From Blastopirellula retiformator (lineage in GTDB: Bacteria; Planctomycetota; Planctomycetia; Pirellulales; Pirellulaceae): a DNA stretch of 64,000 nucleotides. Location: NCBI RefSeq assembly GCF_007859755.1, contig NZ_SJPF01000004.1:372894-436893 (forward strand), written 5' to 3'. How positions within the stretch are numbered: the first letter of the stretch is position 1; every line of letters starts with the position of its first letter. Of this stretch, positions 22,632 through 63,550 are shown piece by piece. The position numbers and the translations under genes are program-made. The notes beneath the pieces are model-generated. The model was not told the origin of the DNA. It worked only from the letters and a program-made list of their open reading frames with translations, and did no database searches.

Positions 22632-22699
22632 GTGTGCCACTGCTGGCTTGTCCAGCAGGTACTCAGTTCGCACTGCTGGACAAGCCAGCAGTGGCACAC
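22632..22699. repeat. Perfect 26-bp inverted repeat, gtgtgccactg family
   Basis: Two perfectly complementary 26-base arms (22632-22657 and 22674-22699) surround a 16-base loop. The arms start gtgtgccactgctggcttgt. The smaller hairpin at 13587-13621 has the same outer arms. It lies between the divergent end of mqnE and the start of the hydrolase gene and could form a stable RNA hairpin downstream of mqnE. Confidence 0.88.
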
Positions 22700-34985: not shown

Positions 34986-35043
34986 GGCCATGCCTCGTTG
35001 AAGATGAGATAGATCAGATCGTGAGCGTGAATCGGGGACGCTG

Positions 35044-36489
35044 CTAGCTCGGTATCTCCGGCAGTTCAAATCTGGCCCGATCGGGGCGGCTTCGCAACGC
35101 ATTCGCCGCCGCATTGTCGACAAACGTCTCGGTGGCGGCGTCAAACCGCAGGGTCGGGCCAAGGCGGTAGCGGCCGCGCGACAGGTCGACGTCGCCGAGC
35201 GTGACCAAGTGCCGCTGCATCGCTTCCCACGACTCGGCGGCCAGTTGATTGTCAGCCAGGCCTTCGGGCGATTTGGCGAACGGAACTTCCTGGCCCAGGC
35301 GATACGACGTGTTCCCCAGGTGGGCCAGCACGGCCGTTTGATGACCATCCAGAACGTCGCTGGCGAGATCCTCTTTCTTGCGACTGCGAACGCAATCGAT
35401 GAAGTTCTGGAAATGGCGGACGCCGTTATTCTCGGGCAGACCGTCGGCAGGGGCGTTGGCGATGCTCTCGCCTGTTTGTTTGCCGCGGGGATAGAACTTG
35501 CCCCCTTGAACCAGGCCCGCGTCGGTCTGAAAACCAATCGCCATCCGGATCGGGCTGTCGTAGTCGAGGCCGCGCTGTTGGCAAACCAACTTCGTCTCAC
35601 CAAAGTCGAACGCCGTCAGTTGCGAGTTGGGCGTTTGCCCCTGATCGTCGTAGCCAAAGCGGCCGCCGATGCTAACGACGCTTTGCGGCGCGGCGCCCTC
35701 AGGCAGCGCCCAACGGACCATCTCAAACTCGTGCGAACCGAGATTCCCCAATTCGCCGTTGCCATAGTCCCAGATCCAGTGCCATTGGTAGTGCACCAGG
35801 TTGGTTCGGTACGGATTCATCGGCGCCGGGCCAACCCACAGGTCGTAGTCCAGCTCACGCGGCGGGGCGGTCGACGCTCGGATGCCGATACTTTTCCGCG
35901 GCCGAAAGATCTGAATGTTGGCCGTTTGCAGTTTGCCATACTTACCGCTGCGAATGTCGGCCGTGTAATCGCGCCACTTGGGGTCGCTGCGCCACTGCGT
36001 GCCATGTTGCACGATGCGGTCGTACCGCTGGGCCGCCGCCACCATGCGCTGGCCTTCGACGATGTTATGGCTGCACGGCTTTTCGACGTAGACGTCTTTG
36101 CCGGCCTGGCATGACCAGATCGTCATCAGCGCATGCCAATGATTGGGCGCGGCGATCGAAACCGCGTCGAGCGACCGATCCTCTAGCGCCTCGCGCACGT
36201 CCTGCACGCACTTGGGCGTAAAGCCGGTCTGTTGCTTGACGGCGGCGCGGCGTGAAGCGAACAATCGACTATCGGGATCGATCAGGTACGCGATCTCAAC
36301 GTTTTTCAGACCGCCATAGACGCGCATGTGGACCTGGCCGCGGCCATTAATTCCTGCGACCGCGACCCGTACGCGATCGTTGGCTCCGATCACTTGCCCC
36401 GATGATTTCGTGCCGGAAATTACGAACGAGGCGCCGACGCCGCTGGCCGCTAGATACTTGAGCGCCTGACGGCGACTTTGCTGATGCAT
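35044..36489 (-). CDS. Tat-exported Gfo/Idh/MocA-family oxidoreductase
   Basis: The 481-residue protein opens with a Tat signal ([20 protein letters not shown]). The Rossmann domain starts [16 protein letters not shown], and [20 protein letters not shown] with [19 protein letters not shown] gives the EKP motif of the family. The C-terminal half fits secreted planctomycete members ([33 protein letters not shown]). It probably oxidises or rearranges a sugar or cyclitol in the periplasm. AGGGA lies eight bases before the chosen ATG. The DapA-like gene ends 43 bp upstream, so the two form an operon. Confidence 0.88.
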
Positions 36490-36532
36490 AACCAATTCCC
36501 TACTTCGTTTCGCGACAGAACGGCGGACCAAC

Positions 36533-37639
36533 CTATGACGGCTGCGACAGGTCGGGCGAAACTTCCTTTAGATACGGTTTCAACGCGGCGAACCGCGCTT
36601 CCACTTCGGCGACCTTTTCGTTGTTCATTTTGAATTCCGTCAAGATCGGCGTCGTTGGGATCGACTTGTTGGGACCATAGACGCGCGAGAGGAGATTCTT
36701 AAAGACGCCCCGCTTTTTCCAGATGTACAGGTTCGCGTCGCGTAGGCCGCCCGGCTTCACTTTGACCATCTGAATGAACTTGCCGAACATCTCCTCCAGC
36801 TTTTCGGGATCATCGCCGCTTTGCTGCAGGCTCCAGATTTCCGTTAGCAAGTCAGCATAGGCGGCCCGCTCGGTAATCACTCCCTCCGAGCCGAGACGCG
36901 ATTCTTCCAGCCAATGGAAACCGCCGCGAGCGCTAAAGACGCGGCGCACCGGCGGACGTGCCGCCAAGGAAGTTTTCATCCGCTCCAGCACATCGCCTGC
37001 TTCTTCTTTGATGTAGCCGAAGTGAGGAAACTCGGCGGCCAATTCGATCATCAACTTGGGCGACGGTAGCGGTCCCTTGTAAGCGACGCCGCCGGTCGTT
37101 TGCAGAATCACCGGTCGGGTCGCCACTTGAGCCAGCGCCCGCCAATACTGCCGCAGGTCCTCTTCGGTCTTTCCGGAGTCAGGCGGTCGCGAGATGATCG
37201 CCGTCGGGTTCAGCTTTTCCGCATGCGCAGCAAACTGCAGCATCTCGGCGGTGTCATTTCCCTGAACGCCCAAACACAGCGCTGTGGCTGACCCGCGCGT
37301 CGTTTCGGCCAGCACCTCCATTCCGTTCCGCTTTTCGTCAGCGGTCAAGAGATCGATGCTGTCGCCCGACTGCGGCCAAATCATGCCGGGCGTTCCCGCC
37401 CAGGCGACGAACTTCGCCTCTTGCGCCAAGACGTCGTAGTCGACCTCGCCATCTTCGGCGTAAGGGGTCGAGAGGATCGGAAATGGCCCGCAAACCTTCG
37501 GATCGGGCGCGACTTTTTCTGGACTAGTTTCGTCAGCCGCCAGCAAATTGGGCAGCGCCGCTGCCGCCATCAGGCCGGATGCTCCTCCGATGGCCTGCTT
37601 CAAGATGGTTCGGCGGGGGATGAGATGATTGGTCGCCAT
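36533..37639 (-). CDS. Tat-exported DapA/NanA-family aldolase or lyase
   Basis: The 368 residues begin with an RR motif and hydrophobic stretch (NHLIPRRTILKQAIGGASGL), a Tat signal unusual for this normally cytoplasmic TIM-barrel family. PFPILSTPYAEDGEVDYDVL matches the family start and FGYIKEEAGD gives the Schiff-base lysine. The usual YNxP tyrosine region reads PVILQTTGGVAY, so the proton-relay tyrosine may be absent or shifted. GAGGAG lies upstream of the ATG. It likely acts with the downstream Gfo/Idh enzyme on an exported sugar acid under control of the GntR gene upstream. Confidence 0.78.
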   Translation of the reverse strand: MATNHLIPRRTILKQAIGGASGLMAAAALPNLLAADETSPEKVAPDPKVCGPFPILSTPYAEDGEVDYDVLAQEAKFVAWAGTPGMIWPQSGDSIDLLTADEKRNGMEVLAETTRGSATALCLGVQGNDTAEMLQFAAHAEKLNPTAIISRPPDSGKTEEDLRQYWRALAQVATRPVILQTTGGVAYKGPLPSPKLMIELAAEFPHFGYIKEEAGDVLERMKTSLAARPPVRRVFSARGGFHWLEESRLGSEGVITERAAYADLLTEIWSLQQSGDDPEKLEEMFGKFIQMVKVKPGGLRDANLYIWKKRGVFKNLLSRVYGPNKSIPTTPILTEFKMNNEKVAEVEARFAALKPYLKEVSPDLSQPS

Positions 37640-37665
37640 GAAGCTCCTCGATCACGCGAAATTCA

Positions 37666-37682
37666 TTTTGCATATTGCATAT
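37666..37682. promoter_or_regulatory. Candidate GntR operator upstream of the DapA-like gene
   Basis: The A/T-rich segment ttttgcatattgcatat includes the small palindrome tgcatattgca, 27 bp upstream of the DapA-like start. A related ttttgcatat occurs in reverse orientation upstream of gntR at 38719-38736. A role as regulator site is inferred from this sharing only. Confidence 0.35.
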
Positions 37683-37825
37683 TACAGTAAGACCCACGGA
37701 ACCGGCGAACAAGTAGAACCTTCGAAAAATTCCGTAAACTTACGGATCGACACCACCCGCCAAGATTAGGGACAATCTTCGTAAGTACTCTCCAGAGAAC
37801 AGCTTCTATGAAAAACCAGGGAACC

Positions 37826-37980
37826 TAGCAGTCCGTTGATTTTCTCGACGGACTGCGTGATCGCAGGGATGCGATCCCAAAATAGCGACGTAAGTCGTTA
37901 TTTTGCGAGCCGCGAAGAGCCACGCTCTGAGCCTGGCGAGGTTGGAAAATGCCACGATGGCATTTTTCAACAGGCAGCTA
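37826..37980. repeat. Inverted-repeat element, family B, complete copy 1
   Basis: This 155-bp element runs from tagcagtccgttgattttct to ttttcaacaggcagcta. Its ends are similar inverted sequences (tagcagtccgttga and tagctgcctgttga). Inner palindromes include cagtccg/cggactg, ccaaaatagcgac/gtcgttattttg and aaatgcc/ggcattt. The final cta (37978-37980) is also the stop codon of the gntR gene. It occurs inverted at 63587-63741. Confidence 0.9.
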
Positions 37981-38715
37981 GGCCGAGTTCGATTCGCCAA
38001 ATCGCTCGGCCACGTAATCGGCCAGCCAGGTATCCAGGTGCTTGGCCAGCGCCTGTTGCGAGGCTTCGCGATCTTCGGCCAGCAGGGCCTCAATGATGGC
38101 CAGATGCTCCAGATTCTCTTCCCGGCGGACGAACCGCTCGGTCGATTGCAGCTCGAGATAGTAAGCGTCGCTTAGCGCTTTGTAGATCGTCGAATAGCGG
38201 GCGATCTCTTCTTTCAGCCGCCGATTTTGGCAATAGAACGCGATCGTCCCGTGCAGTTGTGCATCGATCCGCCGCGTCTCTTTGCTCGAGATCATGCTCG
38301 GCTCGGCGGCGATTACCTGCTTCAGATCGTGCTGCAGCGTCAGCAGTTGTTCCCGCGGAATCGTTCCGCAGGCACAGCGAATCGCTTCCAATTCCAGAAT
38401 CTTACGGACCTGGCACAGATCGCGGGCCTCTTGCGGGCCGAACTCGCGCACCCGCACCCCTTTGTGAGGCAGCACATCGACCATGCCTAGCGACTCAAGC
38501 TCCATCAGCGCTTCGCGCACTGGCGTTCGGCTGACGCCAAACTGCTCGGCCAATGGCTGAACGGTCAGCTTTTCGCCGGGTTGAAATCGCCGAGCAAAGA
38601 TAGCGATCGCCAAACGCTGACTGACTTGCGAGCGCAAACCGCCGCGCTGCAGAGGCTTGGTCAAGTCGCCAACCGACGTCGGGGCATTGTCATCGAACTC
38701 ATCGAGAGTTTCCAT
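37978..38715 (-). CDS. GntR-family transcriptional regulator, FCD type
   Basis: The 245 residues have an N-terminal winged helix (LTVQPLAEQFGVSRTPVREA, LESLGMVDVLPHKGVRVREF) and a helical FCD ligand domain (ICQVRKILELEAIRCACG-like start at residue 108, LHGTIAFYCQNRRLKEEIAR and HLAIIEALLAEDREASQQAL). FCD regulators usually bind small carboxylic acids and repress catabolic operons. The ATG at 38715 begins METLDEFDDNAPTSV. The DapA-like and Gfo/Idh genes lie downstream on the same strand and are likely targets. Its TAG stop is supplied by the end of a family B repeat. Confidence 0.87.
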   Translation of the reverse strand: METLDEFDDNAPTSVGDLTKPLQRGGLRSQVSQRLAIAIFARRFQPGEKLTVQPLAEQFGVSRTPVREALMELESLGMVDVLPHKGVRVREFGPQEARDLCQVRKILELEAIRCACGTIPREQLLTLQHDLKQVIAAEPSMISSKETRRIDAQLHGTIAFYCQNRRLKEEIARYSTIYKALSDAYYLELQSTERFVRREENLEHLAIIEALLAEDREASQQALAKHLDTWLADYVAERFGESNSA

Positions 38716-38718
38716 ACT

Positions 38719-38736
38719 GGATATTATATGCAAAAA
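38719..38736. promoter_or_regulatory. Candidate autoregulatory site upstream of gntR
   Basis: The segment ggatattatatgcaaaaa lies directly upstream of the gntR start. Its complement reads ttttgcatataatatcc, sharing ttttgcatat with 37666-37675. It may be the promoter and operator of gntR. The match is short and A/T-rich. Confidence 0.3.
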
Positions 38737-38896
38737 GCAGCCGGGTTTTGAATTCCGCCTTTTTCGCACCCAAAATTTGCGTAAAGCGAGCTACCGTCGC
38801 CATATAGGTTGGTCCGCCCATGGGGCTGCAGGTTGTTTCGTGCCGCTTGGCCAACGATAATGCGACTTCCCGCCACCCATCCCCCGGAATCCCACC

Positions 38897-40672
38897 ATGA
38901 AGATATTCCTCCGCTCGCTGCTGATCGTTGCGCTCTTGGCAAACGTCGCCCTAGCCCAAGCTCCTGCCAACAACGAACCGACCAACGCCGAAGAAGCGGC
39001 CGCCAAAAAGGCGAGAGAAGCCGCCGAGATCGACGCCCAGTACCAGGCCTGGATTGCGACGCTCACGCCGCAGCAGCAAGCTTGGGAAAAAACGCTGCAG
39101 GCCGAGCTGGGCGGTTTTTATCTGCCGATCCACAAGAAAGAAAAAGTCAAAGGCCGCTCTAACGCCTGGGACTTTGTCGCCGACGATCCTAAGCTGCCGC
39201 GGATCTTGCTGATTGGCGATTCGGTCTCGCGAGCCTACACGGGGACCGTACGGAAACAGCTGGACGGCATCGCCAATGTTCATCGCGCGCCTGCCAACTG
39301 TGGGCCGACGGCGACCGGGCTGAAGAAGCTGGACGTATGGCTGGACGACGGCAAGTGGGACGTGATTCATTTCAACTTTGGCATCCACGATCGCAACACG
39401 CCGCTGGATGATTACAAACAACGTCTGACCCAACTGGTCGAGCGGATGAAGAAGACCGGCGCGATGGTCGTTTGGGCCAGCACGACGCCGATCCCGGATG
39501 TCGAAGCGAAGAAGTTCACCGCCCAGTCGATCATCGATCGCAACAACGTCGCCGCCGAAGTGATGAAAGAACAGGGCGTAGTCACCGACGATCTTTACTC
39601 CGCGATCCTGCCCCGTTTAGACGAACTGCAACTGCCGGAGGACGTCCACTTCCGGGGCGAAGGGAATACATTTCTCGGTAAGCAGGTGGCGATCTTCCTC
39701 CAAGAAAACCTGCCGCAGGTCTACAAGCTGTCGAAGCGAGCCAGCGAGCTTGATCCGGCCGCCGCCGAACATCCTGAGATCGGCTTTGTCTTCGCCGACG
39801 CCAAAGGCAAGCCGCAAGACTTACAGCACGCGATCGTCGACACCCGCAAGCCGCAAAAGGGGCAACTGGTGATCTGGCTGATGGCCCACAACGGCACGTT
39901 GTTCGATCGACTCGCCAGCTACGGGCTGCATGCGATTCAGCCCCATTACGCCAACCGATGGTTCGGCATGATCGACGCCAAGCAGCGAGACGATGGCGAA
40001 AGCCTGGGCAAGATTCGCCTGGAAGCGGCGACCGGCGAAGACTTCAGCCCCGTAGTCGACATCCCGAAAGCGGACGGGATGAAGACCCGCGCTCTCCACT
40101 TCGTGAAGTACCTGGCGAAAGAAAACCCGGCCGGCAACTGGAAGCAGTTCCTCAACGACGATCAAACCGATCTGCGGTGGGACAAAGTGATCATGGCTGG
40201 CGCCTCACACGGCTCGACCACTTCGGCCCGGTTCGCCAAGCATCAAAAGGTGGCCCGCGTCGTGATGCTGTGCGGCCCGCGTGATCAACTGGACTCGTGG
40301 CAAGGTCTGCCGTCGGCGACGCCACAGAATCGCTACTTCGGCTTCAGCCACGTCTTGGACGGCGGCTGGACCGGCGATCACTACTGCCGTTCGTGGATCA
40401 TGCTCGGCTTGGCCAAGTTCGGTCCGGTCGTCAACGTCGACCAGGTACCCTATCCGTACGAGTCGTCACGCCGTTTGATCACCGACGCCGACGTGAAAAA
40501 GGATGCCCGCCGCGCCCACAGCAGCGTCGTCCCCGGCGGCTCGGCGGTCAAAGACGCTGACGGGAAGTTCATTCACGAAGAGGTTTGGCGATACCTGTTC
40601 ACCTACCCGGTCGATGACGTCGGCGAGGCGGTTGAACCGGAGTCGGACTGCATGCTCGATCTGCGGAAGTAG
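38897..40672 (+). CDS. Secreted double hydrolase: SGNH/GDSL domain fused to alpha/beta-hydrolase-like domain
   Basis: The 591 residues start with a Sec signal (MKIFLRSLLIVALLANVALA). The SGNH part (residues 85-280) has ILLIGDSVSRAYTGTV (block I Ser), FNFGIHDRNTPLDDYKQ (block III) and EDVHFRGEGN (Asp-x-x-His block V). The second part (residues 310-590) has VIMAGASHGSTTSARFAKHQ with a nucleophile-like Ser and a late histidine in DARRAHSSVVPGG, as in alpha/beta hydrolases. It may remove two ester types from polysaccharides. It is divergent from gntR and next to sugar-related genes, so it could belong to the same pathway. Confidence 0.8.
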   Translation: MKIFLRSLLIVALLANVALAQAPANNEPTNAEEAAAKKAREAAEIDAQYQAWIATLTPQQQAWEKTLQAELGGFYLPIHKKEKVKGRSNAWDFVADDPKLPRILLIGDSVSRAYTGTVRKQLDGIANVHRAPANCGPTATGLKKLDVWLDDGKWDVIHFNFGIHDRNTPLDDYKQRLTQLVERMKKTGAMVVWASTTPIPDVEAKKFTAQSIIDRNNVAAEVMKEQGVVTDDLYSAILPRLDELQLPEDVHFRGEGNTFLGKQVAIFLQENLPQVYKLSKRASELDPAAAEHPEIGFVFADAKGKPQDLQHAIVDTRKPQKGQLVIWLMAHNGTLFDRLASYGLHAIQPHYANRWFGMIDAKQRDDGESLGKIRLEAATGEDFSPVVDIPKADGMKTRALHFVKYLAKENPAGNWKQFLNDDQTDLRWDKVIMAGASHGSTTSARFAKHQKVARVVMLCGPRDQLDSWQGLPSATPQNRYFGFSHVLDGGWTGDHYCRSWIMLGLAKFGPVVNVDQVPYPYESSRRLITDADVKKDARRAHSSVVPGGSAVKDADGKFIHEEVWRYLFTYPVDDVGEAVEPESDCMLDLRK

Positions 40673-40702
40673 TCGTGGCAAATGCGAGACTCAGAATGCG
40701 GG

Positions 40703-43369
40703 CTATTCGCCAGCGCCATAGACGCTGAATGCTTCGCTGTAACGACGAGTCGTCAATGGACGTTCCTCCTCCGAAAGTGCGAGAACCCAAGCCGCGTTGA
40801 TCACTTGTTCGGTCAGCTTCTGCCGATCAAGCCCCGGCGGAAGCGTGTCGTCACTTGGCGCGGAAACGTCTGGGCAAAGCCGTTTTAATACAACGCGTCC
40901 CTCGTCAGTAATGGGTATCGTCGCTAAACGACATAGTAATTGCTCGCGCGTCAATTCGCTAAGCGTACGCGAGCTCTTTCGCACTGCCTGACTAACGGAA
41001 ACGCCTGGCTCGAAAACGTGCGAATAGAACTCACCGCAATAAAACGCCGTTGCAAGATCGTAGACCGGCCAAGCGGAACTGACGACTGCCGACGCTCCCA
41101 TTTCTAACAAGGCAGAAGGAAGACCAACCATCTCGTTGCCAAAGGATACGCCGTCGACCAATCCGCTTTCACAAGCACTCAAGAAGACGAACGGAGGAAA
41201 CTTCTCGCCAAGATGCCGTTGGAGCTGACGCATCGAAATGGGTCGGTCATGCAATACTAGTTTCGTAAAGTCGAGGAATTTCCAAGCGAACGTTGCGTGA
41301 CCTGCAAAATGCAAAGTTTCGACATGTTCAATGATCTCCGAAAACGTCTCAAACGTCGCTTGATCGCCTAGATATAACGAAACATTCCTTTCATCCCCGG
41401 CCAAACGGCGCCAGACCAGGTAGGCCTCAATGATCGACATTGGCAAGTCGCTCGCCGGCGCAAATATCGCCGCACTCCTGTGTTCCCTGGGGCAGACCGA
41501 TTTCCGTCGCAGGTTCATCCAGGCCTCAATCGACGGTATCTGTCCTACCGCCAATCGCTCTGGACAACCAAGGTGAAGCGGCAACAAAGATAAATCGCTT
41601 GTACCGGAGATGAGAAGATGATCTATCGTGTGCGAGAGCTTTGGCAAGACAGGAGAAAACAGCTTGCTCTTCACAAATTGGGCTGTCCTGTCGAGGCACG
41701 CGTCGAACTGAGTCGTCGCCGCCACTCGTGCGAGGTCTGCCAGTTCGGCCGAGGCCGGCAAGAGATAATTCAGCCGCGAATATAACAAGTGATACGAGTT
41801 GTAATATCCCGTAGCTTTTTCGGCATTCTTTTCGGCGATCGCCGCGAGAACTTCATTGCAGCGATGTCTCGCATCGGCCGGATCGTCTTGTCTCGCCGCC
41901 ATTGCCTCTTCGTCCCCGCGAGCTTCGTCAACTGCCGTCTTGTGACACCCAGACAGCATTTCTTGCCAACCCATGACCTCGCGATCTGCCGCATAGACGA
42001 TCCGATCAACGTCAGTTTTTGATACGACGTCAAAGAGCGTAATATGATCTATCCTACCTGCCTGCACCAGATAAGCTTCCAGTCCGAACGCTCCCTCGGA
42101 AATGTGAAGTATGGCAAGTTTCATGGGGACTTGTAAATCCTGGCCGGGAACGAAACGTCGCAGTTCTTCCAGGTGCTCGCGAACTTGCCAATTGTCTTCA
42201 ATTATGGAGGCGCGTGCGCCCGCAATTTTCTTCAATCCAGGTAAGGCCTCGTCAAAGTGCATGGAAGCGACGTCGGGAAGCGAATCCAAGAGACCGAGAC
42301 GTCGCTTGTACTCTCCCCAACTTTGATTGAGTTTTTTTTCGACCGCCTGTCGCAACAATAATTGCTCGGTTAGTCGGACCGACTTTCCTCGGTCGACCTC
42401 ACGCACCGCCTCGTCAAGGCGTCCGAGTTGGGCCAAGTAACTTGCTCTCTCGGATCGGGCAGGAGCGAACGCTCGCAACTGATAGAGACGTTCCTCAATA
42501 GAACGACATTGAAGCAGCGTTTGAGCAAGGAGTTCGCTCAATTCCAGAAGTTGGTCCGCGGCCTCGCCAAAGTCGTCTCGCAGCGCATATATCCTCGCAG
42601 CCAACCGCTTCGCATCAACGTACCCACCAAAGTTGCCCGCTTCCGCCATTTGCTTGATCGCCATCAATGCGTAGTTTTTCGCATCTTCGAGACGTGCACT
42701 TTTCCCCTCTCTCTCCCAACGTCGCATATTGTGACGAGCTTGCGCCATGTTGATGCTATAGGGTGGCCATGAAGGATGATTAATCGGCCAGCCTGCCTGG
42801 GCGTCCGCGAATGCGGCATCCGCCTGGTCGCCGACAAACTCGACTTCCGTCAACGCAAAGTCATACAAATGGGAATAGGCCAGCGCAATGTTGTATCGGT
42901 TTTTCGCAGGCGCAATACCGGCTGGAGCGCTTTCCCAAAACGTAATCGCGTCGTGAAGCCCTTCAATAGCTGCACTTCGTTCCACATCGTCCATCGTTAT
43001 TTTCAAATGCACCAGCCATAACAACCCCAGAGAATTCTTCGCTAGTGCGACATAGTGGTCGAACCCATGCTTCTGTGAAATGTCAATTGCAAACTTCAGG
43101 GCGTCTTCCGCCTCCCGCTTGTCATCCCAGCTATGGAGTCGTTCGTAACGCGTTCGCATCAACGTGGCCCGCATTCCTAGCGCCTGGATCAACTGTTCCC
43201 AGCGACTTCGCTTCATTGCGTACTGGATTACCAGCCCCAATTCTAGGTCGGCTTGGTGCGAATCCTGATCGCGGTCCCGTTGTTGGTAGAGGGCCAGAAA
43301 TTGCTCCGCTTCAGCGAACCTTTGTCGCGCTTCGTCGTCGGATTGAATTCCGTTGAAGTAGACCGACAC
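40703..43369 (-). CDS. CHAT-domain caspase-like protease with TPR-like N-terminus
   Basis: The 888 residues begin at a GTG with GGAGG seven bases upstream. Residues 1-330 are helical and repeat-like (ALGMRATLMRTRYERLHSWD, YLAQLGRLDEAVREVDRGKS), consistent with TPRs. The CHAT protease covers about 560-830: DHLLISGTSDLSLLPLHLGC, the catalytic His691 in LHFAGHATF, Cys733 in FVFLSACESGL, then GNEMVGLPSALLEMGASAVV. In other bacteria CHAT proteases act in programmed death or anti-phage pathways. The EACC1-like gene is 40 bp upstream on the same strand. Base composition is visibly more A/T-rich than the flanking genes, suggesting transfer. The substrate is not visible; no gasdermin-like gene is adjacent. 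Confidence 0.88.
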   Translation of the reverse strand: MSVYFNGIQSDDEARQRFAEAEQFLALYQQRDRDQDSHQADLELGLVIQYAMKRSRWEQLIQALGMRATLMRTRYERLHSWDDKREAEDALKFAIDISQKHGFDHYVALAKNSLGLLWLVHLKITMDDVERSAAIEGLHDAITFWESAPAGIAPAKNRYNIALAYSHLYDFALTEVEFVGDQADAAFADAQAGWPINHPSWPPYSINMAQARHNMRRWEREGKSARLEDAKNYALMAIKQMAEAGNFGGYVDAKRLAARIYALRDDFGEAADQLLELSELLAQTLLQCRSIEERLYQLRAFAPARSERASYLAQLGRLDEAVREVDRGKSVRLTEQLLLRQAVEKKLNQSWGEYKRRLGLLDSLPDVASMHFDEALPGLKKIAGARASIIEDNWQVREHLEELRRFVPGQDLQVPMKLAILHISEGAFGLEAYLVQAGRIDHITLFDVVSKTDVDRIVYAADREVMGWQEMLSGCHKTAVDEARGDEEAMAARQDDPADARHRCNEVLAAIAEKNAEKATGYYNSYHLLYSRLNYLLPASAELADLARVAATTQFDACLDRTAQFVKSKLFSPVLPKLSHTIDHLLISGTSDLSLLPLHLGCPERLAVGQIPSIEAWMNLRRKSVCPREHRSAAIFAPASDLPMSIIEAYLVWRRLAGDERNVSLYLGDQATFETFSEIIEHVETLHFAGHATFAWKFLDFTKLVLHDRPISMRQLQRHLGEKFPPFVFLSACESGLVDGVSFGNEMVGLPSALLEMGASAVVSSAWPVYDLATAFYCGEFYSHVFEPGVSVSQAVRKSSRTLSELTREQLLCRLATIPITDEGRVVLKRLCPDVSAPSDDTLPPGLDRQKLTEQVINAAWVLALSEEERPLTTRRYSEAFSVYGAGE

Positions 43370-43409
43370 TTATCGCCTCCGATCTTAGGTGGTGAATGAG
43401 CGAGCCAAT

Positions 43410-43802
43410 TCACGACGACTTGGACGTCTCCTTGTCGACCTCAAGATAAATTTTCTTCGCCCCTAGGTCCTTTGCCATTGCCACATACTCTTCGATCTCG
43501 TGCATTGGGGTATCAGAGGGAACCTCAACCCGAGCGTCGTTCTCGCCAACAATAACAATCGTTCCTTTGTTGCCAACTTCCGCTTGAACAATCTTCAGAA
43601 GCCCAACGAGAATTGTCGTCAGCACCGTGCCTATCGCACCTACGATCGCCACGATGATCGTCGGATCTGGAGCCAACATTCTTTGCTGATTGGGCAGATA
43701 GACCAGTTCATACTTGGCCGAATCTCCATCGCGAGATTTAGACAGTTCGGTGTAGACGCCATCCAAAGGAATGACGAAGGAGCGGATTTCAAGACGATCC
43801 AT
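43410..43802 (-). CDS. EACC1-like membrane protein (effector-associated constant component 1)
   Basis: The 130-residue protein has a soluble beta-rich N-terminal segment (MDRLEIRSFVIPLDGVYTEL), a single Gly/Ala-rich membrane helix (TIIVAIVGAIGTVLTTILVG) and a C-terminal domain TIVIVGENDARVEVPSDTPM that leads into helix EIEEYVAMAKDL. This order, and the pattern of a helix followed by I-V-x-G-x-x-R-x-x-E-V-P, match my recollection of the EACC1 family found beside CHAT and trypsin-like effectors in NTP-dependent conflict systems. GGAAG lies nine bases before the ATG. It probably tethers or senses for the CHAT protease encoded 40 bp downstream. Confidence 0.65.
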   Translation of the reverse strand: MDRLEIRSFVIPLDGVYTELSKSRDGDSAKYELVYLPNQQRMLAPDPTIIVAIVGAIGTVLTTILVGLLKIVQAEVGNKGTIVIVGENDARVEVPSDTPMHEIEEYVAMAKDLGAKKIYLEVDKETSKSS

Positions 43803-43854
43803 TGGAAACTCTTCCGTTTTTGACCCAGGTCGAACAGATGATCGCGACGGGACG

Positions 43855-44019
43855 TTACCCGTGGGCGAACGCCCGAGCAGATGTCTTAAACTCGTCCCGT
43901 AAGGATCCCCCTAGATATATCCGCTCACCTATCGGTCCACAACTTTCTTCTCGTAGAAGTTGATAATCTTCACTTCCAGCGATCATCCGCACCGACATCC
44001 AAAACGCGAATAATCCCAT
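43855..44019 (-). CDS. Doubtful small ORF upstream of the EACC1-like gene
   Basis: The 54-codon frame MGLFAFWMSVRMIAGSEDYQ ... KTSARAFAHG lies between the TauE stop and the EACC1-like start, in the operon direction. A longer version starting at 44064 overlaps the end of the TauE gene. There is no clear ribosome site and no known motif. It could be a small third component, a remnant, or noise in the promoter region of the CHAT operon. Confidence 0.2.
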   Translation of the reverse strand: MGLFAFWMSVRMIAGSEDYQLLREESCGPIGERIYLGGSLRDEFKTSARAFAHG

Positions 44020-44054
44020 GCTATCCGCGCGCTCAAGTGACTGATTCCGATCGT

Positions 44055-44864
44055 TCACCCCCAAAGCGTCTTCGCGATCACAAACATCGCCACCGCCACA
44101 ATCACCACGGCAAAACCTTTTTGCAGCACGGTGGCTGACAATCGTTTACCGATCGTTTGGCCGGCGAACAGGCCGCCGACGCCGCCGGCGATGAACAGTA
44201 GCGTCAGGACCGGTTCGATCGAGCGGCCGAGCAACAGATGCGACGTCACGCCGCTGACGCTGACAATGGCGATCACCATCAGCGAGGCCCCCACCGCTTT
44301 GTGGATCGGCATGCTGGTGAAGAAGATGAGCGCCGGCACGATCACAAATCCGCCCCCCACGCCAAACATGCCGCTCAGGATGCCGGTGATCAAACCAACC
44401 GCCGACAGCATCATCGCGCAACGTGAGGTCAGCAGCAGTTGACCGTCGGCATTGCGGCGACACGTTGCCGGCGCCTCGTCCGCGTCTGACTCGCAAGTGA
44501 TCGGCTTGGCCGCCGCCTTTTGCCATAGGCGAACCGCGACGACCAGCATCAGCAGGGCGAATAGCGATAGCAAGAGCGTCTCGCTCATCCGCCCCGCAAT
44601 CAGCGTGCCGAGTGGGGCGCCAATCATGCCGGCGACGGCGAACAGCAGCCCGGTCCGAACTTCAACATCGCCATGTCGCAAGCGAGCGAAGAACCCGATC
44701 AGCGAGGTCGCTCCGACGGCGGCCAGCGAGATGCCGACCGCCTCGTACATCGAAACTCCCATGCCGTAAACCAACAGCGGCACGGCGAAGATCGCTCCAC
44801 CGCCGCCGGTCAGTCCGAGCGACAGACCGACAATCGCGCCAAACAGCAGTGCGACGGGTGACAT
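44055..44864 (-). CDS. TauE/SafE-family sulfite exporter-like permease
   Basis: The 269-residue membrane protein has about eight helices and the family's duplicated Gly-rich motifs: IVGLSLGLTGGGGAIFAVPL near the start and GILSGMFGVGGGFVIVPALI in the second half. TauE/SafE proteins export sulfite or related sulfur anions. It lies 31 bp after the persulfide dioxygenase-rhodanese gene on the same strand, so it likely removes sulfite made by that enzyme. The central loop (SDADEAPATCRRNADGQLLL) is cytoplasmic. Confidence 0.88.
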   Translation of the reverse strand: MSPVALLFGAIVGLSLGLTGGGGAIFAVPLLVYGMGVSMYEAVGISLAAVGATSLIGFFARLRHGDVEVRTGLLFAVAGMIGAPLGTLIAGRMSETLLLSLFALLMLVVAVRLWQKAAAKPITCESDADEAPATCRRNADGQLLLTSRCAMMLSAVGLITGILSGMFGVGGGFVIVPALIFFTSMPIHKAVGASLMVIAIVSVSGVTSHLLLGRSIEPVLTLLFIAGGVGGLFAGQTIGKRLSATVLQKGFAVVIVAVAMFVIAKTLWG

Positions 44865-44895
44865 GGGATGACCTCCCTTTCCCGCGGCGCGCGGC

Positions 44896-46317
44896 CTAAA
44901 TGCCGGCGCCAGACCAGGCCGTTTCCAAGGGCAACTGAGCGGCGCTGTAGGCCTGGATTCCGCCGCTCATGTTGGTGACGTCCAATCCGCTTCGCTGCAG
45001 CAAACTGGCGGCGATCGACGAGCGAGCGCCGCTCTTGCACTGCACCACGTACGACTGCAACGGATCGAGTTGATCCATATTTCGCAACAGTCGTCCCAGA
45101 AACTGATGCTGGGCGCCGGGGATGTGACCTTGCAGGAACTCCGCTTCCGACCGCACGTCGAGCAGCGTCACCTGTTTTTCCTCGATCGCCGCTTGCAGTT
45201 CTGCCGGCTTACCGCTGGGGTACGACTCGGTACGCAGTCCGGCGTCGCGAACCGCCGCAGCGTCAAAATAGCCGCTGATCCGATCGATGCCGATCGAGCG
45301 GAGCGACGTCAAACAGGTCGGCAGCGTCTCGTCATCCACGATCAGATAGATCGGCTCTTCGTAGTTGACGAAGAAGCCGGCCCACTGCGACAACATTTTG
45401 GTCGGAATGTTGATCGTGCCGGGGACATGCGCTTCGCTGAACAGGCTCGACGGCGTCACATCGATCACCAGGCGATCCTCCGCGATCGAGGCCAGACCAG
45501 CCGGATCCATCGCCGCGACCGTTTGCAGGTCGGACAAGATTTCGGGGCCTTCCCTATTTACCCGCTTCATCACGGCGAAGTAGAACGGGGTCTCCGGCTG
45601 ATCGGCCAAGATATAGTCGACAAACGCTTGCTCGTCGTCGTACTGCAGCGCGGGGTTGAATTTCTTCTCGTAGCCGACGGTGCTCGACGGAATCGCTCCC
45701 AACCCTTTGCCGCACGCGCTGCCGGCGCCGTGGGCGGGCCACACCTGCAAGTAATCAGGCAAATTGCGGAAGCGCTCGACCGACTGGAACAACTGCCGGG
45801 CGCCTTGTTCGGCGCTGCCGACCACGCCGGCCGCCGTTTCCAGCAGGTCAGGCCGGCCGATCGAACCGACAAACACAAAGTCGCCGGTGAAGATTCCCAT
45901 CGGTTCGGACGCGCCGCCCCCCTGGTCGGTCAGCACAAACGAGATGTGCTCCGGCGTATGTCCTGGCGTATGCAGCGTCTGCAGCTTCACCTTGCCGACA
46001 TAGAACGCGTCGCCATCTTTCAGCAGCTTGGCGTCAACCTTGTCGGCGTATTGATACTTCCAATCGGCCGGACCTTCGTCCGACAGGTAAAGCGTCGCGC
46101 CGACACGATCGGCTAGCTCGCGCGAGCCGGAGACGAAGTCGGCGTGGATGTGCGTTTCGGCGGCGCCAACGATCTTCAGCCCGTTCGCCTTCGCCGCGTC
46201 GAGGTAAGGCTGCACGTTGCGGCCAGGGTCAATCACGATCGCTTCGCCCGACTTCTGGCAACCAACCATGTAGGACGCATGAGCAAGCGCCGTGTCGTAA
46301 AAGTATTTGAGTAACAT
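44896..46317 (-). CDS. Persulfide dioxygenase-like metallo-beta-lactamase fused to two rhodanese domains
   Basis: The 473 residues begin with an ETHE1-like MBL domain: THIHADFVSGSRELADRVGA, TLHTPGHTPEHISFVL and TGDFVFVGSIGRPDLLE carry the iron ligands. Residues 260-360 form a rhodanese domain without its active cysteine (EPIYLIVDDETLPTCL). Residues 375-470 form a second rhodanese with the intact loop VVQCKSGARSS. The layout matches CstB-type or BLH-type sulfide detoxification enzymes that turn glutathione or CoA persulfide into sulfite and thiosulfate. The ArsR-type repressor gene is 78 bp upstream and a palindromic site lies between them. Confidence 0.9.
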   Translation of the reverse strand: MLLKYFYDTALAHASYMVGCQKSGEAIVIDPGRNVQPYLDAAKANGLKIVGAAETHIHADFVSGSRELADRVGATLYLSDEGPADWKYQYADKVDAKLLKDGDAFYVGKVKLQTLHTPGHTPEHISFVLTDQGGGASEPMGIFTGDFVFVGSIGRPDLLETAAGVVGSAEQGARQLFQSVERFRNLPDYLQVWPAHGAGSACGKGLGAIPSSTVGYEKKFNPALQYDDEQAFVDYILADQPETPFYFAVMKRVNREGPEILSDLQTVAAMDPAGLASIAEDRLVIDVTPSSLFSEAHVPGTINIPTKMLSQWAGFFVNYEEPIYLIVDDETLPTCLTSLRSIGIDRISGYFDAAAVRDAGLRTESYPSGKPAELQAAIEEKQVTLLDVRSEAEFLQGHIPGAQHQFLGRLLRNMDQLDPLQSYVVQCKSGARSSIAASLLQRSGLDVTNMSGGIQAYSAAQLPLETAWSGAGI

Positions 46318-46350
46318 CGCCTGACTCCTTTCCCCAAGTCTTTATTAGAA

Positions 46351-46370
46351 ATATCGCAACATTACGATAT
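46351..46370. promoter_or_regulatory. ArsR operator 2, upstream of the persulfide dioxygenase gene
   Basis: The 20-bp near-perfect palindrome atatcgcaacattacgatat lies in the arsR/MBL gap, 34 bp before the MBL start. It matches the site upstream of arsR at 46736-46755 in all but four positions. Confidence 0.7.
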
Positions 46371-46394
46371 TTGATATCAAAAAAAGAGGCGACG

Positions 46395-46712
46395 CTACGT
46401 CGCCGCCTCGACTCCAAATCGACTTTCGATGCAATGCAGGATGTCTTGCAGGTGGGGTTCGGCGACCGAGTAGTACACCTTCCGCCCATCCTTTTGACTG
46501 TTGAGGAATCCGCACCGCTGCATCAGGCGCAAATGCTCCGACGCCATCGGGCTCGGAATCTCACACGCCTCGGCCAGTTCACCGACGGTGTAATCCCCCT
46601 GCAGCAACATCTGCACCATGCGCAGGCGATGGGGATGCGCCAAGATCCGCAAGCATTCGGCGGCTTGCCCCAAGGCGTCTAAGGTCGTCAGTTTTAGTTT
46701 TGGCGTAGGCAT
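46395..46712 (-). CDS. ArsR-family repressor, probably sulfide/persulfide-responsive
   Basis: The 105-residue winged-helix protein has the ArsR pattern LRILAHPHRLRMVQMLLQGD, YTVGELAEACEIPSPMASEH (recognition helix) and LNSQKDGRKVYYSVAEP. Cysteines at 20, 50, 67 and 94 could form a redox pair as in SqrR/BigR regulators; no CVC metal site is present. The ATG at 46712 has GAGAGAGGAAC upstream; an earlier ATG would place the start beyond the operator. A palindrome overlaps its promoter and a second copy precedes the MBL-rhodanese gene. Persulfide sensing is inferred from the operon content. Confidence 0.85.
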   Translation of the reverse strand: MPTPKLKLTTLDALGQAAECLRILAHPHRLRMVQMLLQGDYTVGELAEACEIPSPMASEHLRLMQRCGFLNSQKDGRKVYYSVAEPHLQDILHCIESRFGVEAAT

Positions 46713-46735
46713 CTTCCGTTCCTCTCTCTCCAAAT

Positions 46736-46755
46736 ATATCGGAACATTCCGACAT
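46736..46755. promoter_or_regulatory. ArsR operator 1, autoregulatory
   Basis: The palindrome atatcggaacattccgacat (perfect core cggaacattccg) lies 24 bp upstream of the arsR start. It shares the frame atatcgNaacattNcgaNat with 46351-46370. Repression of arsR by its own product is the simplest reading. Confidence 0.7.
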
Positions 46756-46923
46756 GTCAAGTCCGCGAATCCGACCGCCAACCGACGATTTATTCTAAAT
46801 TAGTTCACGCCTCGCGATAACTAGATATTATACGCTCAGTCAAACCAGCCCAGTTTCTCTCCCGATATTCGTCGCTTAATTGCAACGCCTGCGCCGCAAG
46901 AACATTTTTTTCCTGAAAGCCGC

Positions 46924-47649
46924 ATGTCCGTCAACACGCTCGAAATCATCCCCCCAAACCGCCCGATCACCATCGGCGCCATCCTGTTCCCGAACATGGA
47001 CCAGATCGATCTGACCGGCCCGCTGTCGGTCTTGGCCCGGCTTCCCAACAGTTCGCGACAACTGCTTTGGAAGCGAATCGAACCGATTCACGATCATCTG
47101 GGTTTGGGGCTGTTGCCTGATACGACGTTTGACCAAGCGGGGGCGATCGACCTGTTGCTGGTGCCTGGCGGACCGGGGCAAGAGGAACTGATGGAGGACG
47201 AGGAAGTCCTGTTGTTCCTCCGCAAGCGCGCACCGAAAGCCAAGTGCATCTTCTCGGTCTGCACCGGTTCGATCGTCTGCGGGGCTGCAGGCCTGTTGAA
47301 AGGGAAAACGGCGACGACCCACTGGACGGCGCTGCCGCTGCTGAAATACTTCGGCGCCCAACCTTCAAAACAGCGCGTCGTCGTCGACGGCAAATACGTC
47401 AGCGCTGCGGGACTCACCTCCGGAATCGACGGCGCCTTGATAGTGGCGGCGCTGCTGCGCGGCGAAGAAGTCGCCCAGGCTATTCAACTGGCGATTCAAT
47501 ATGCCCCCGATCCACCGTTTGATTGCGGCGAACCTGACTTAGCGCCCCCCGAAACGCTGGCCATCGTCACGCAGCAAACGGCGGAATTGACGGCGCGGCG
47601 CGAAGCGACGGCCAAGCGAATCGCAGCGAAGCTGGGAATTGAAGTCTGA
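46924..47649 (+). CDS. DJ-1/PfpI-family protein (isonitrile hydratase-like)
   Basis: The 241 residues show the flavodoxin-like DJ-1/PfpI fold: ITIGAILFPNMDQIDLTGPL (conserved Asp), DLLLVPGGPGQEELMEDEEV and the nucleophile elbow FSVCTGSIVCGAAGLLKGK with its cysteine. ATTHWTALPLLKYFGA and GLTSGIDGALIVAALL are typical of the isonitrile-hydratase/InhA branch. The actual substrate is unknown. No AraC domain is attached. It is divergent from the arsR operon and 18 bp upstream of the next gene, probably co-transcribed. Confidence 0.85.
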   Translation: MSVNTLEIIPPNRPITIGAILFPNMDQIDLTGPLSVLARLPNSSRQLLWKRIEPIHDHLGLGLLPDTTFDQAGAIDLLLVPGGPGQEELMEDEEVLLFLRKRAPKAKCIFSVCTGSIVCGAAGLLKGKTATTHWTALPLLKYFGAQPSKQRVVVDGKYVSAAGLTSGIDGALIVAALLRGEEVAQAIQLAIQYAPDPPFDCGEPDLAPPETLAIVTQQTAELTARREATAKRIAAKLGIEV

Positions 47650-47667
47650 ATCACACCGAGCCAACGT

Positions 47668-48579
47668 ATGCCCATCGACAACGTCATCCTCGAAATGTTC
47701 GGCCCCGATCCCCGGATCCTAGAGATCGCGGCGATCTTTAGCGCGAAACAATACGGCCAGACGGCGGAAGGCAAATCCGACGCAGGCCAAGCCAGCTACT
47801 ACGCCGCCCTTGAAATCGAAGTCGCCGCCACCGAAGACGAAGAGAGACTAGACGCTGCTTTAAGCTGGATAACGCATCACGCGTCGCTGCTGGCGGAGTT
47901 CGACGGCGAGAAGGTGCTCGAAATCCAATCGCATCTATCGGCCAACGACGGTAGCCGCTCGCTTTGTCTCGACCAAGCGTTCATCGACGCGCTCGCTGAA
48001 AATGGACTGCGACTGCGTCACCAAGTTTCGCGCGAGATTGTCGACCGTCTCCAATTGGCGCGTGAAGGCGTCGTGGCGCATGAAGGGATCTTGCCGCTCG
48101 ACGATCCAAGATGGTCCCAGCTAGCCGACGCGCTCGGCGAGACTTTCGAGTGCGGGCAGATGTTGCGGCAGCTACTAGAAACCGGACCAAGCGAATCAAT
48201 CTGGGACGTCTGCTGGAACCGGCTCGTCTATCAAGAATCGATTGGTGAGGTCAGCTACGCCGCCGCTCCCTATCTAGCCATGTTCGTTTGTCATTCGGCC
48301 GAGATCGACTGGAACGCGTTGGCGATTCTCTCGGCAATCGAACTTGCCCGGCCAGACGGTCCGCCGCTTCCGCCAGAGCTTGCCGAGCCCTACTTCGTCA
48401 CACTCCACTCGGTGCCGCAGATGCTCGCCAATCATGCGAGCCAACAATGGGACGAACTTGTCACGCGCTGCGCCGCGTCGTGCATCGCGTTGGCCCGGGG
48501 ACAACGAGAGTTGGGGCGAATCTATGCCGAAATGAGCCTGGCCGAGGGGCTTGCGTGGCTAAGGCGAGAGGGCGAGTAG
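47668..48579 (+). CDS. Uncharacterised protein, DUF4279-like N-terminus with HEAT-like C-terminus
   Basis: I do not firmly recognise this 303-residue soluble protein. Residues 1-130 (SYYAALEIEVAATEDEERLD, LSWITHHASLLAEFDGEKVL, DALAENGLRLRHQVSRE) resemble the general pattern of DUF4279 proteins. Residues 150-295 (SIWDVCWNRLVYQESIGEVS, YAAAPYLAMFVCHSAEIDWN) resemble helical-repeat proteins that often begin with LW..L.HQG..Y.ASYAA.PYL. Both kinds occur in toxin-immunity neighbourhoods. There is no signal or membrane segment. It lies 18 bp after the DJ-1 gene. The start has no strong ribosome site. Confidence 0.6.
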   Translation: MPIDNVILEMFGPDPRILEIAAIFSAKQYGQTAEGKSDAGQASYYAALEIEVAATEDEERLDAALSWITHHASLLAEFDGEKVLEIQSHLSANDGSRSLCLDQAFIDALAENGLRLRHQVSREIVDRLQLAREGVVAHEGILPLDDPRWSQLADALGETFECGQMLRQLLETGPSESIWDVCWNRLVYQESIGEVSYAAAPYLAMFVCHSAEIDWNALAILSAIELARPDGPPLPPELAEPYFVTLHSVPQMLANHASQQWDELVTRCAASCIALARGQRELGRIYAEMSLAEGLAWLRREGE

Positions 48580-48908
48580 CAAAGTCATGGTCATTGCGCA
48601 AACGCGGCAGATGCCATCCCCTCTCCGCCGGCCCAAGCGATGGAAACATTTTGAGATTTTGTCTTTTTTTCGCCGAGCAAAGGACTGCTCAAGGCCACCC
48701 GTCAATGCTCATCTACCAAACCTTAACGAGATAAAGAATGCCATTAAAGCGGAAATTTCCTCCAGTATACCCGCAATAAAACCAGAAAGGTCGGAAAAGC
48801 ATCTCAATTCCATGGCAAAAATTCTCATTGCTGCGATGGTCGGTGCGTGGCTACGATCTCCGCGATATCCCCTCTTTTTCTAAAAAACCTTGCATCTTGT
48901 GAGCCGCC
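48580..48908. other. Gene-free interval upstream of the second DUF1559 gene
   Basis: This 329-bp stretch is more A/T-rich than its surroundings (aaatttcctccagtataccc, ttctaaaaaaccttgcatct). It must carry the DUF1559 promoter and leader. I see no recognisable RNA motif or repeat of the window's families here. Confidence 0.6.
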
Positions 48909-61828: not shown

Positions 61829-63550
61829 CTAAGAGACCCTCTCGGCGAGGCAGCTGGGATAGTAATCGCCAGCATTGTGCGACACTTCGAAGCCCATTTT
61901 CTGCGTCGGCGCCGGCGTATCTTCGTCTTCGATCTTCTGCAGCATCAAAAATAACAGCACGCCAATCAATAAGAACAGAAGTCCAATGGCAATCCAGATG
62001 AATGCGGGAACGCCAGCGAAGTTCAGGTTGATGCCGCTGCTGCCGTGCGACTTCGATCGCGAGCGTTTATCGCGGGCCGCTTCTTTCTCACTGACGCGGT
62101 TCTGCAGCGCTTCGCGCGAGATCATCGTCGCGCCGCCGACGCTCTCGCCGGCCGTCATTAGCGGATCAGCGATGCTAACATCCAACACCCCGCTGGCGCC
62201 AGGATCGGACATCGACGACAGCAAATCGTCATCCAGCGCCCGCGCCACCGGCAACGGCTTGCCGCGACCGGCGCTGGAGAGGCCGGCGCTGGAGCGTCCG
62301 GCGCTGGAGAGGCCGGCATCGGTTTCAACGCGTTGACCGCGGACCGTTTCGGAATTGAGGATGCCAGAGTTGCCGTCGTCCAGTTCTTCCAGCAGTTCGG
62401 CCACGCGGGGCATCGTCGACGGGGCGACCGTGCCCGACTTGCCCCCTTCGGCCTTGGCTTGCCGCAGCTCGACTTCTTCACCGGCGACGGTCAGTTCTTC
62501 GTCAGCGCCGCTGCGTCGCTGTTTCAGCCAATCTCGGAGGGCGACGGCCACTTCGCTGGCCGATTGATACCGCTGCTCCGGCTTCTTCATCATCAGCTTT
62601 TCGCAGATTTTCGCCAGCAAAGCAGGGCAATTGGGGCGCAACTTCCGCAGCTTCTCGGGATTGATCGTTTGGTGTTTGGCAATCCGCTGCGCCAGACTGC
62701 CGTCCGGAAACGGCGGATGGCCGACCAACAGGAAATAGAGCGAGCACCCGAGACTATAAAGGTCAGCGCGACCATCCACCTTGTGACTGTTGACCGCTTG
62801 TTCCGGCGACAGATAGTCGGCCGTGCCTAGCACGCTCTCTTGATTGGCGAGCGTCAGCGAGGTGGCGTCGTCTCGGGTGAACCGGGCCAGTCCCATATCC
62901 AGGACTTTCACCACGCCGCTATCGTCCAGCAGCAAGTTGGCCGGTTTGATGTCGCGGTGGATCAGACCCCGCTGATGGGCGTGCTGCAAGGCGTCGGCCG
63001 CTTGGGCGATGTAGTCGGCCGCGGTTTCGACTTCCAGCGGACCTTTCTCGCGGACCAAGACCTGCAAGTCGCACCCCGGGACGTACTCCATCACGATGTA
63101 ATGGGTATCCCCTTCGTTATCGACGTCGAAGGCCCGCACGATGTTGGGATGGTCCAGTTGAGCCGCCGCCTGCGCTTCGAGATGGAATCGACCCAGATAG
63201 GACGAATCTTTGACGCGATTGCGGGGGAGCACTTTGATCGCCACCTTGCGCTGCATCACCGTATGCTCGCCCAGGTAAACGCTGCTCATGCCGCCGGTCC
63301 CTAAATGGCCCAACAGCTTGTACTTGGAGAGGAAGAAACCCTTGTATTTCCCCTGCAGGATCTTCTCGCGGTGCCAGGTGGTGATGTACTTCTTGGCGAC
63401 GAAGTAATCGGCCGTCTGCTGCACATCTTCCGGCAATTCTCCCCCGTTTTGAGCGCGCAGCTCAGCAACGGCGGTTTCAAATTGCGTGGGGTGGATCAGT
63501 TGTGATCGCCCGGCAAGTTCAATGAAACGTTCGGAAGTAATGTTACTCAT
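61829..63550 (-). CDS. Membrane-anchored Ser/Thr protein kinase
   Basis: The 573 residues include a lead-in region (YITTWHREKILQGKYKGFFL) and an active Hanks kinase (residues 78-345): LGTGGMSSVYLGEHTVM, KVAIKVLPRN, GLIHRDIKPANLLLDDSGVV, LDMGLARF (DMG instead of DFG), LSPEQAVNSHKVDGRADLYS. A variable tail has tandem SSAGR/SSAGL units (residues 412-430) and a C-terminal helix (FIWIAIGLLFLLIGVLLFLM) that anchors the protein. It shares its lead-in with the pseudokinase at 5327-8425. The substrate is unknown. Confidence 0.9.
   Translation of the reverse strand: MSNITSERFIELAGRSQLIHPTQFETAVAELRAQNGGELPEDVQQTADYFVAKKYITTWHREKILQGKYKGFFLSKYKLLGHLGTGGMSSVYLGEHTVMQRKVAIKVLPRNRVKDSSYLGRFHLEAQAAAQLDHPNIVRAFDVDNEGDTHYIVMEYVPGCDLQVLVREKGPLEVETAADYIAQAADALQHAHQRGLIHRDIKPANLLLDDSGVVKVLDMGLARFTRDDATSLTLANQESVLGTADYLSPEQAVNSHKVDGRADLYSLGCSLYFLLVGHPPFPDGSLAQRIAKHQTINPEKLRKLRPNCPALLAKICEKLMMKKPEQRYQSASEVAVALRDWLKQRRSGADEELTVAGEEVELRQAKAEGGKSGTVAPSTMPRVAELLEELDDGNSGILNSETVRGQRVETDAGLSSAGRSSAGLSSAGRGKPLPVARALDDDLLSSMSDPGASGVLDVSIADPLMTAGESVGGATMISREALQNRVSEKEAARDKRSRSKSHGSSGINLNFAGVPAFIWIAIGLLFLLIGVLLFLMLQKIEDEDTPAPTQKMGFEVSHNAGDYYPSCLAERVS

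Follow-up and report, generated by a model that had tools for sequence, protein, structure and literature searches.

Two genes of Blastopirellula retiformator, one for a predicted CHAT protease and one for a small protein with a single hydrophobic helix, lie 40 bp apart in a stretch of 64,000 nucleotides (contig NZ_SJPF01000004.1, positions 372,894 to 436,893; hereafter the window) of a 6.2 Mb genome in ten contigs. They raise the question of whether they were acquired and act together, and whether the small protein belongs to the EACC1 family, as a first-pass annotation of this DNA had proposed. We found that the acquired pair of a CHAT gene and a membrane-protein gene is real, and that the EACC1 label is not supported. 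On the minus strand, the 130-amino-acid gene comes first and is followed, after 40 bp, by the 888-amino-acid gene, exactly as annotated. The features of the locus are the following.

40703..43369, minus strand: gene of the predicted CHAT cysteine protease; 888 amino acids, GTG start, dyad H691 and C733, CHAT match over residues 562-809
43370..43409, minus strand: intergenic gap of 40 bp, with a GGAGG ribosome site ahead of the CHAT start; fits a single transcript
43410..43802, minus strand: gene of the candidate membrane partner; 130 amino acids, ATG start, no relatives detected in the searches described below
43803..44054, minus strand: leader of 252 bp separating the small gene from TauE; judged from its position only, the promoter region
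40673..44054, no strand assigned: acquired cassette of low G+C content, between a GDSL-like gene (38897-40672) and a TauE exporter gene (44055-44864), both conserved

An acquired cassette at a variable spot of the genus

The cassette has a G+C content of 0.530, against 0.595 (35000-40672) and 0.601 (44055-48600) in its flanks, which bears out the earlier remark that the pair is A/T-richer than its surroundings. It is the lowest point of the whole window, as only 4 of 609 sliding segments of 3.1 kb were as low in G+C, all of them overlapping the cassette. Both genes share this foreign composition, with third-position G+C values of 0.568 (CHAT gene) and 0.565 (small gene) vs 0.693-0.784 in ten neighbours. 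Moreover, in a second member of the genus (G018, locus L108) the aligned flanks are intact and lie approximately 105 bp apart, compared to 3.4 kb in the source genome. In two further members (G080, L109 10206-14962; G107, L110 10473-14813) the gap is filled with different content of 4.3-4.8 kb, one gene of which we take to be DUF1559-like. Since the gap is nearly empty in one genome and holds other content in two, it represents a spot of variable content across the four genomes of the genus that were compared, among which the CHAT gene and the small protein were found only in the source genome. The low G+C content, the low third-codon-position G+C and the near-empty site of the same genus establish the two genes as an acquired cassette, and the proposal that a CHAT protease and a closely spaced one-helix membrane partner were gained as a unit is upheld.

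The ends of the cassette carry few marks. No terminal direct repeats of 7-12 bp were found between 40661-40760 and 43796-44070, where only three 7-bp inverted repeats occur; the window contains no tRNA, and neither cassette gene matched an integrase or transposase family in Pfam. At the empty site of G018 (L108, approximately 10318-10424), CACTGCTGG and CCAGCAGTG form the two arms of an inverted repeat, and the same two words recur 14 bp apart at positions 22671 and 22685 of the window. No phage origin was found for the small protein, whose best match in PHROGs (E value 0.042) fell over the helix. The CHAT protein returned nothing from PHROGs and nothing from viral contigs, which were scanned in a way that detects only close relatives; a phage record gave a single remote match (E 2e-4).

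With regard to expression, the GTG of the CHAT gene is preceded at 6 nucleotides by GGAGG, and the ATG of the small gene has the weaker GGAAGAG ahead of it. The leader gave no Rfam match, its folding was ordinary (z -0.89), and a consensus scan of it found no promoter-like site; going by spacing and strand, the two genes are probably carried on one transcript. When all six frames across the small open reading frame (ORF) were scored for codon usage, its own scored positive and the remaining five negative. This result, together with a third-position G+C equal to that of the CHAT gene, makes it a plausible gene even though no relatives were detected.

A CHAT protease with its catalytic pair in place

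The 888-amino-acid protein matched PF12770 (CHAT) in Pfam over residues 562-809 with an E value of 3.6e-29; its 102.6 bits lie far above the cut-off, which is 24. Both H691 and C733 were invariant in alignments of 9 (9/9) and 27 (27/27) sequences, in agreement with the intact His691 and Cys733 noted at first pass. Apart from CHAT, Pfam returned just Peptidase_C25 at E<=1 (17.7 bits, under its cut-off); at this threshold neither Peptidase_C14 nor any TPR family matched. Judged from its sequence, the protein is thus a CHAT protease carrying the catalytic pair in conserved positions, for which proteolysis is predicted.

The structure of the protein was modelled with AlphaFold2 from the 27-sequence alignment (mean predicted local distance difference test, pLDDT, 64.1). 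Most blocks of the CHAT half reached pLDDT 66-91, whereas the model was weak at and after C733, the 731-750 block scoring 54-56 and residues 737-744 falling below 50. Residues 11-120 were modelled as helix pairs (pLDDT 68-80), while residues 365-540 were mostly below 50. The N-terminal half is therefore TPR-like by prediction; the annotated TPR-like character received no Pfam support and now leans on this predicted helical N-terminus, on which the TPR relatives contained in the underlying alignment may have exerted a bias. A Foldseek search with the model gave Csx29 chains (8eey_B, E 1.9e-11) and separases as top matches, at TM-scores of approximately 0.15-0.45 by either length and a high root mean square deviation, so that a TPR-CHAT-like layout is supported and a close relation is not. 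DdvA, a transmembrane anti-sigma factor, was likewise matched by the model (8rot and 8rw5; E 5.4e-8). At E<=0.01, the profile of the 27-sequence alignment picked up 275 distinct sequences in the PDB, with Csx29 and DdvA chains among them; the 60 listed were led by TPR proteins, reflecting the TPR relatives in the alignment. Searched as a single sequence against the PDB, the protein gave no match at E<=0.01.

The source genome encodes a second CHAT-like protein (contig 6, 332327-332551; open frame of 1006 amino acids), in which the match covers only positions 5-80 of the CHAT profile. Neither a His-Gly-His nor an Ala-Cys-Glu signature was present in the 797 residues inspected, and this protein may be an inactive CHAT.

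A small membrane protein without detected relatives

The 130-amino-acid protein contains a single hydrophobic helix (mean Kyte-Doolittle value of 2.48 from residue 49), modelled by single-sequence AlphaFold2 at residues 47-76 (mean pLDDT for the protein, 60.5). Its tail (residues 80-122) is predicted to form a strand-strand-helix-strand arrangement, in blocks at pLDDT 75-88. Two strands are predicted at low confidence in the N-terminus, where residues 1-54 have a pLDDT below 50 except for residue 26. No family in Pfam, PADLOC or NCBIfam matched the protein, and a structural search with its model yielded nothing at E<=0.001. Among 392 genomes of the phylum, it recovered only itself at E<=0.001. 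No relatives were found in plasmids or phages, and genome and viral collections, scanned with short exact peptide patterns that pick up close relatives only, yielded none either. When the limit was relaxed to E<=1 in 198 genomes of the family, weak matches appeared in 42 genomes besides the source (best E 0.0095); the five loci inspected by eye were judged to be chance matches. Two of these five (L183 and L188) look like one protein family and match over a glycine-rich hydrophobic stretch. We accordingly treat the small protein as a lead and not yet as a family.

The small protein is not recognised as EACC1

As published, System 4 comprises a membrane protein, EACC1, encoded upstream of a caspase, mostly an N-terminal one (PMC7159879). 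The idea that the small protein is a true but very diverged EACC1, next to which a CHAT protease has replaced the usual C14 caspase, has the layout on its side. The gene order is the same, the size is similar, and one helix with small residues stands between alpha/beta flanks, as in the EACC1 anatomy given there. This likeness is one of layout only. The annotated C-terminal pattern Val-Pro-Asp-Thr-Pro proved to be a misreading of V-P-S-D-T-P, and DTP occurs in none of nine genuine EACC1 sequences (0/9). The suggested search with PF19953 gave no match to the small protein up to E 10, whereas the same family model gives 40 bits to a genuine EACC1 member (L178) and 23.3 bits to a gene of the source phylum (L009). 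Elsewhere in the source genome, its only match (62450-62560 of the window) had 16.8 bits, under the cut-off, and at the same loose limit 9 of 14 control genomes also gave matches.

For a more sensitive comparison, ten genuine EACC1 matches over the cut-off were available from five actinobacterial genomes, and a profile was built from nine of them. On this profile the small protein scored 1.2 bits, as against 30.2 bits for L009 and 9.6-53.4 bits for genuine members left out in turn; 115 of 1000 segment-wise shuffles of the small protein did as well or better, and hhalign gave a probability of 0.2% over nine columns. Once L009 was included in the profile, the small protein rose to 3.4 bits, a score equalled by 40 of 1000 shuffles. 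The power of the profile is limited, in that L178, when left out, scored 9.6 bits, less than the best shuffle (9.8). In addition, the predicted tail has one strand more than that of EACC1, and the downstream gene encodes a C-terminal CHAT in place of the N-terminal caspase or cyclic nucleoside monophosphate cyclase of EACC1 systems; in the three genes adjoining EACC1 that we scanned, the caspase was in every case an N-terminal C14. Membership is thus unsupported by Pfam, by the nine-member profile, by the shuffles and by hhalign, and we consider descent from EACC1 improbable. Nevertheless, given that gene order and anatomy match the published EACC1, the small protein may work like EACC1 even though it fails the tests of membership.

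An EACC1-like gene next to a C14 caspase does occur elsewhere in the phylum. At L009 (genome G435), an EACC1-like gene (1345-1692) that falls just under the PF19953 cut-off of 23.6 bits lies 10 bp ahead of a gene for a C14 caspase (1703-2845). By sequence, this is likely an EACC1-caspase pair, and the only one in the 294 phylum genomes searched at E<=0.001.

Distribution of CHAT relatives and of the pairing

The CHAT domain is widespread in the phylum, being present in 184 of 392 genomes at E<=1e-6. Relatives of this particular protein are rarer: outside the source genome, they were detected in 3 of 198 genomes of the family (E<=1e-10) and in 26 of 391 genomes of the phylum (E<=1e-8); 6 of 15 plasmid matches were inspected. 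For a comparison of neighbourhoods we compiled 113 CHAT loci, consisting of the best 80 of at least 331 confirmed ones and 33 further loci, all from the source phylum and drawn from searches in which at most 4 (family) or 2 (phylum) candidates per genome were scored. These correspond to 112 distinct loci, as L034 and L152 are the same, and six pairs (this one included) are more than 90% alike. Upstream sequence was usable for 97 loci, the other 16 lacking either 500 bp upstream or an internal start.

A loose one-helix filter passed eight ORFs at these loci, two of them upstream of the CHAT gene (L022 and L023), and none resembled the small protein when judged by eye. The expectation that homologous CHAT genes would lie next to such a partner was consequently not borne out. 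However, none of the 122 alignments obtained over the 113 loci at E<=1e-4 starts before query residue 506. All loci thus align to the CHAT half only, leaving the N-terminal half itself without detected relatives, and as remote relatives they do not amount to a test on close homologues, of which none was found.

A possible membrane-coupled conflict module

Taken together, these observations lead us to propose, with slightly less than even confidence, that the two genes form a horizontally acquired conflict module in which the protease acts at the membrane on, or through, an anchored partner. In the CHAT protein, the helical N-terminal half would sense or relay a cue of infection or damage and so switch on the caspase-like site of the C-terminal half. 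The small partner, encoded first, would be held in the membrane by its one helix, with its C-terminal alpha/beta tail facing the cytosolic protease. The latter would act at the membrane via the partner, either being held or regulated by it or cutting it so that an effector is released or unmasked, and the outcome would be growth arrest or death of the infected cell. The partner might be a tether, a substrate or an inhibitor. By analogy, and in view of the cassette-like context, a conflict or death module is plausible, and its target may be phage. A more specific version, in which a TPR-CHAT protease and a membrane partner representing a new family make up a minimal membrane-coupled death switch that reached the EACC1-caspase layout independently, is possible but doubtful.

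In favour of an acquired conflict module are the dyad in place, the structural matches to the regulated proteases Csx29 and separase, the 40-bp gap on the same strand, the matched third-position G+C, the empty site and the comparable published pairs treated below, namely EACC1 with its caspase, gasdermins with their proteases and Csx29 with Csx30. Several observations weigh against it. The searches turned up no relative of the partner by which conserved pairing could be demonstrated, and no comparable partner was seen among the 113 CHAT loci (97 of them with usable upstream sequence). Scanned with Pfam, the six flanking proteins (a GntR regulator, a GDSL-like protein matching under the curated cut-off, the TauE exporter, a beta-lactamase-fold/rhodanese protein, an ArsR regulator and a DJ-1 protein) are metabolic or regulatory and form no defence island. 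PADLOC gave the CHAT part only a weak match to BovA (E 1.4e-4, residues 702-781) and the partner none. Lastly, CHAT proteins also serve in signalling other than defence, chain B of the DdvA anti-sigma entry being named a CHAT domain-containing protein.

Three other explanations were weighed. The small protein might be a protease inhibitor or a membrane-tethered antitoxin and the pair an addiction module, as would suit a small gene preceding a large one in a compact, acquired and patchily distributed unit; given that the small protein matches no family in the three collections searched and that membrane-spanning antitoxins are unusual, we hold this to be unlikely. The pair might instead serve membrane signalling of the stress or anti-sigma type rather than defence. 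The DdvA anti-sigma entries contain a CHAT protein, and Csx29 is reported to free a sigma factor from Csx30 (PMC10028731). On the other hand, the six flanking proteins include no sigma factor, and within the genus the pair was found in only one of four genomes (1/4), so that we give this explanation a small chance. Finally, that two unrelated cargo genes arrived together, the small one having no functional link to the protease, would fit a variable spot with different content in two other members of the genus and the lack of recurrent pairing in the CHAT loci examined, but is very improbable given the 40-bp spacing, the ribosome site of each gene and the matched codon composition.

Apart from Craspase and the gasdermin pairs, few CHAT proteins are known to have a partner. 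We found no paper on a CHAT protein with such a one-helix partner among the titles, abstract openings and top-ranked matches of a mainly open-access literature. This compact pair offers a tractable test of whether a TPR-CHAT protease can signal directly to the membrane with no need of a CRISPR complex, a nucleoside triphosphatase or a gasdermin. If the proposed module is real, it would also point to more than one origin of the EACC1-caspase layout. The weight of this is limited by its resting on a single locus and on a partner without detected relatives.

Comparison with known systems

In the DdvA entries, as at the present locus under the proposed module, a CHAT protein works at the membrane; going by the entry names, DdvA is one polypeptide, whereas here the helix is on a separate protein. 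No paper naming DdvA was found among the top-ranked literature matches. Gasdermins are larger than the 130-amino-acid partner. Bacterial gasdermin pairs likewise combine, in a compact arrangement, a caspase-like protease with a membrane-acting partner, the protease being reported to activate the adjacent gasdermin (PMC9612521), but the partner described here has its own hydrophobic helix and no match in PADLOC or Pfam.

Csx29 of the type III-E CRISPR system (Craspase), the top structural match, shares with our protein a helical N-terminal half, a C-terminal CHAT and a His-Cys dyad. The Csx29 dyad is H615/C658, and the protease, once allosterically activated, makes one cut in Csx30, its partner from the same locus (PMC10028731). 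In contrast, the NCBIfam Csx29 model gives our protein 11.4 bits where its cut-off demands 300, no Cas gene (Cas7-11 included) was present among the six flanking proteins scanned, and the neighbour is a small membrane protein. The EACC1-caspase pairs of System 4, in which EACC1 has been proposed as a membrane sensor that triggers the caspase (PMC7159879), have in common with the present pair the gene order, a one-helix small protein with alpha/beta flanks and a second gene of the caspase superfamily. They differ in that our small protein is unrecognised as EACC1 and that its companion bears a C-terminal CHAT with no C14 match. Overall, the layout of the pair resembles both the EACC1-caspase and the Csx29-Csx30 systems, and the pair is a member of neither.

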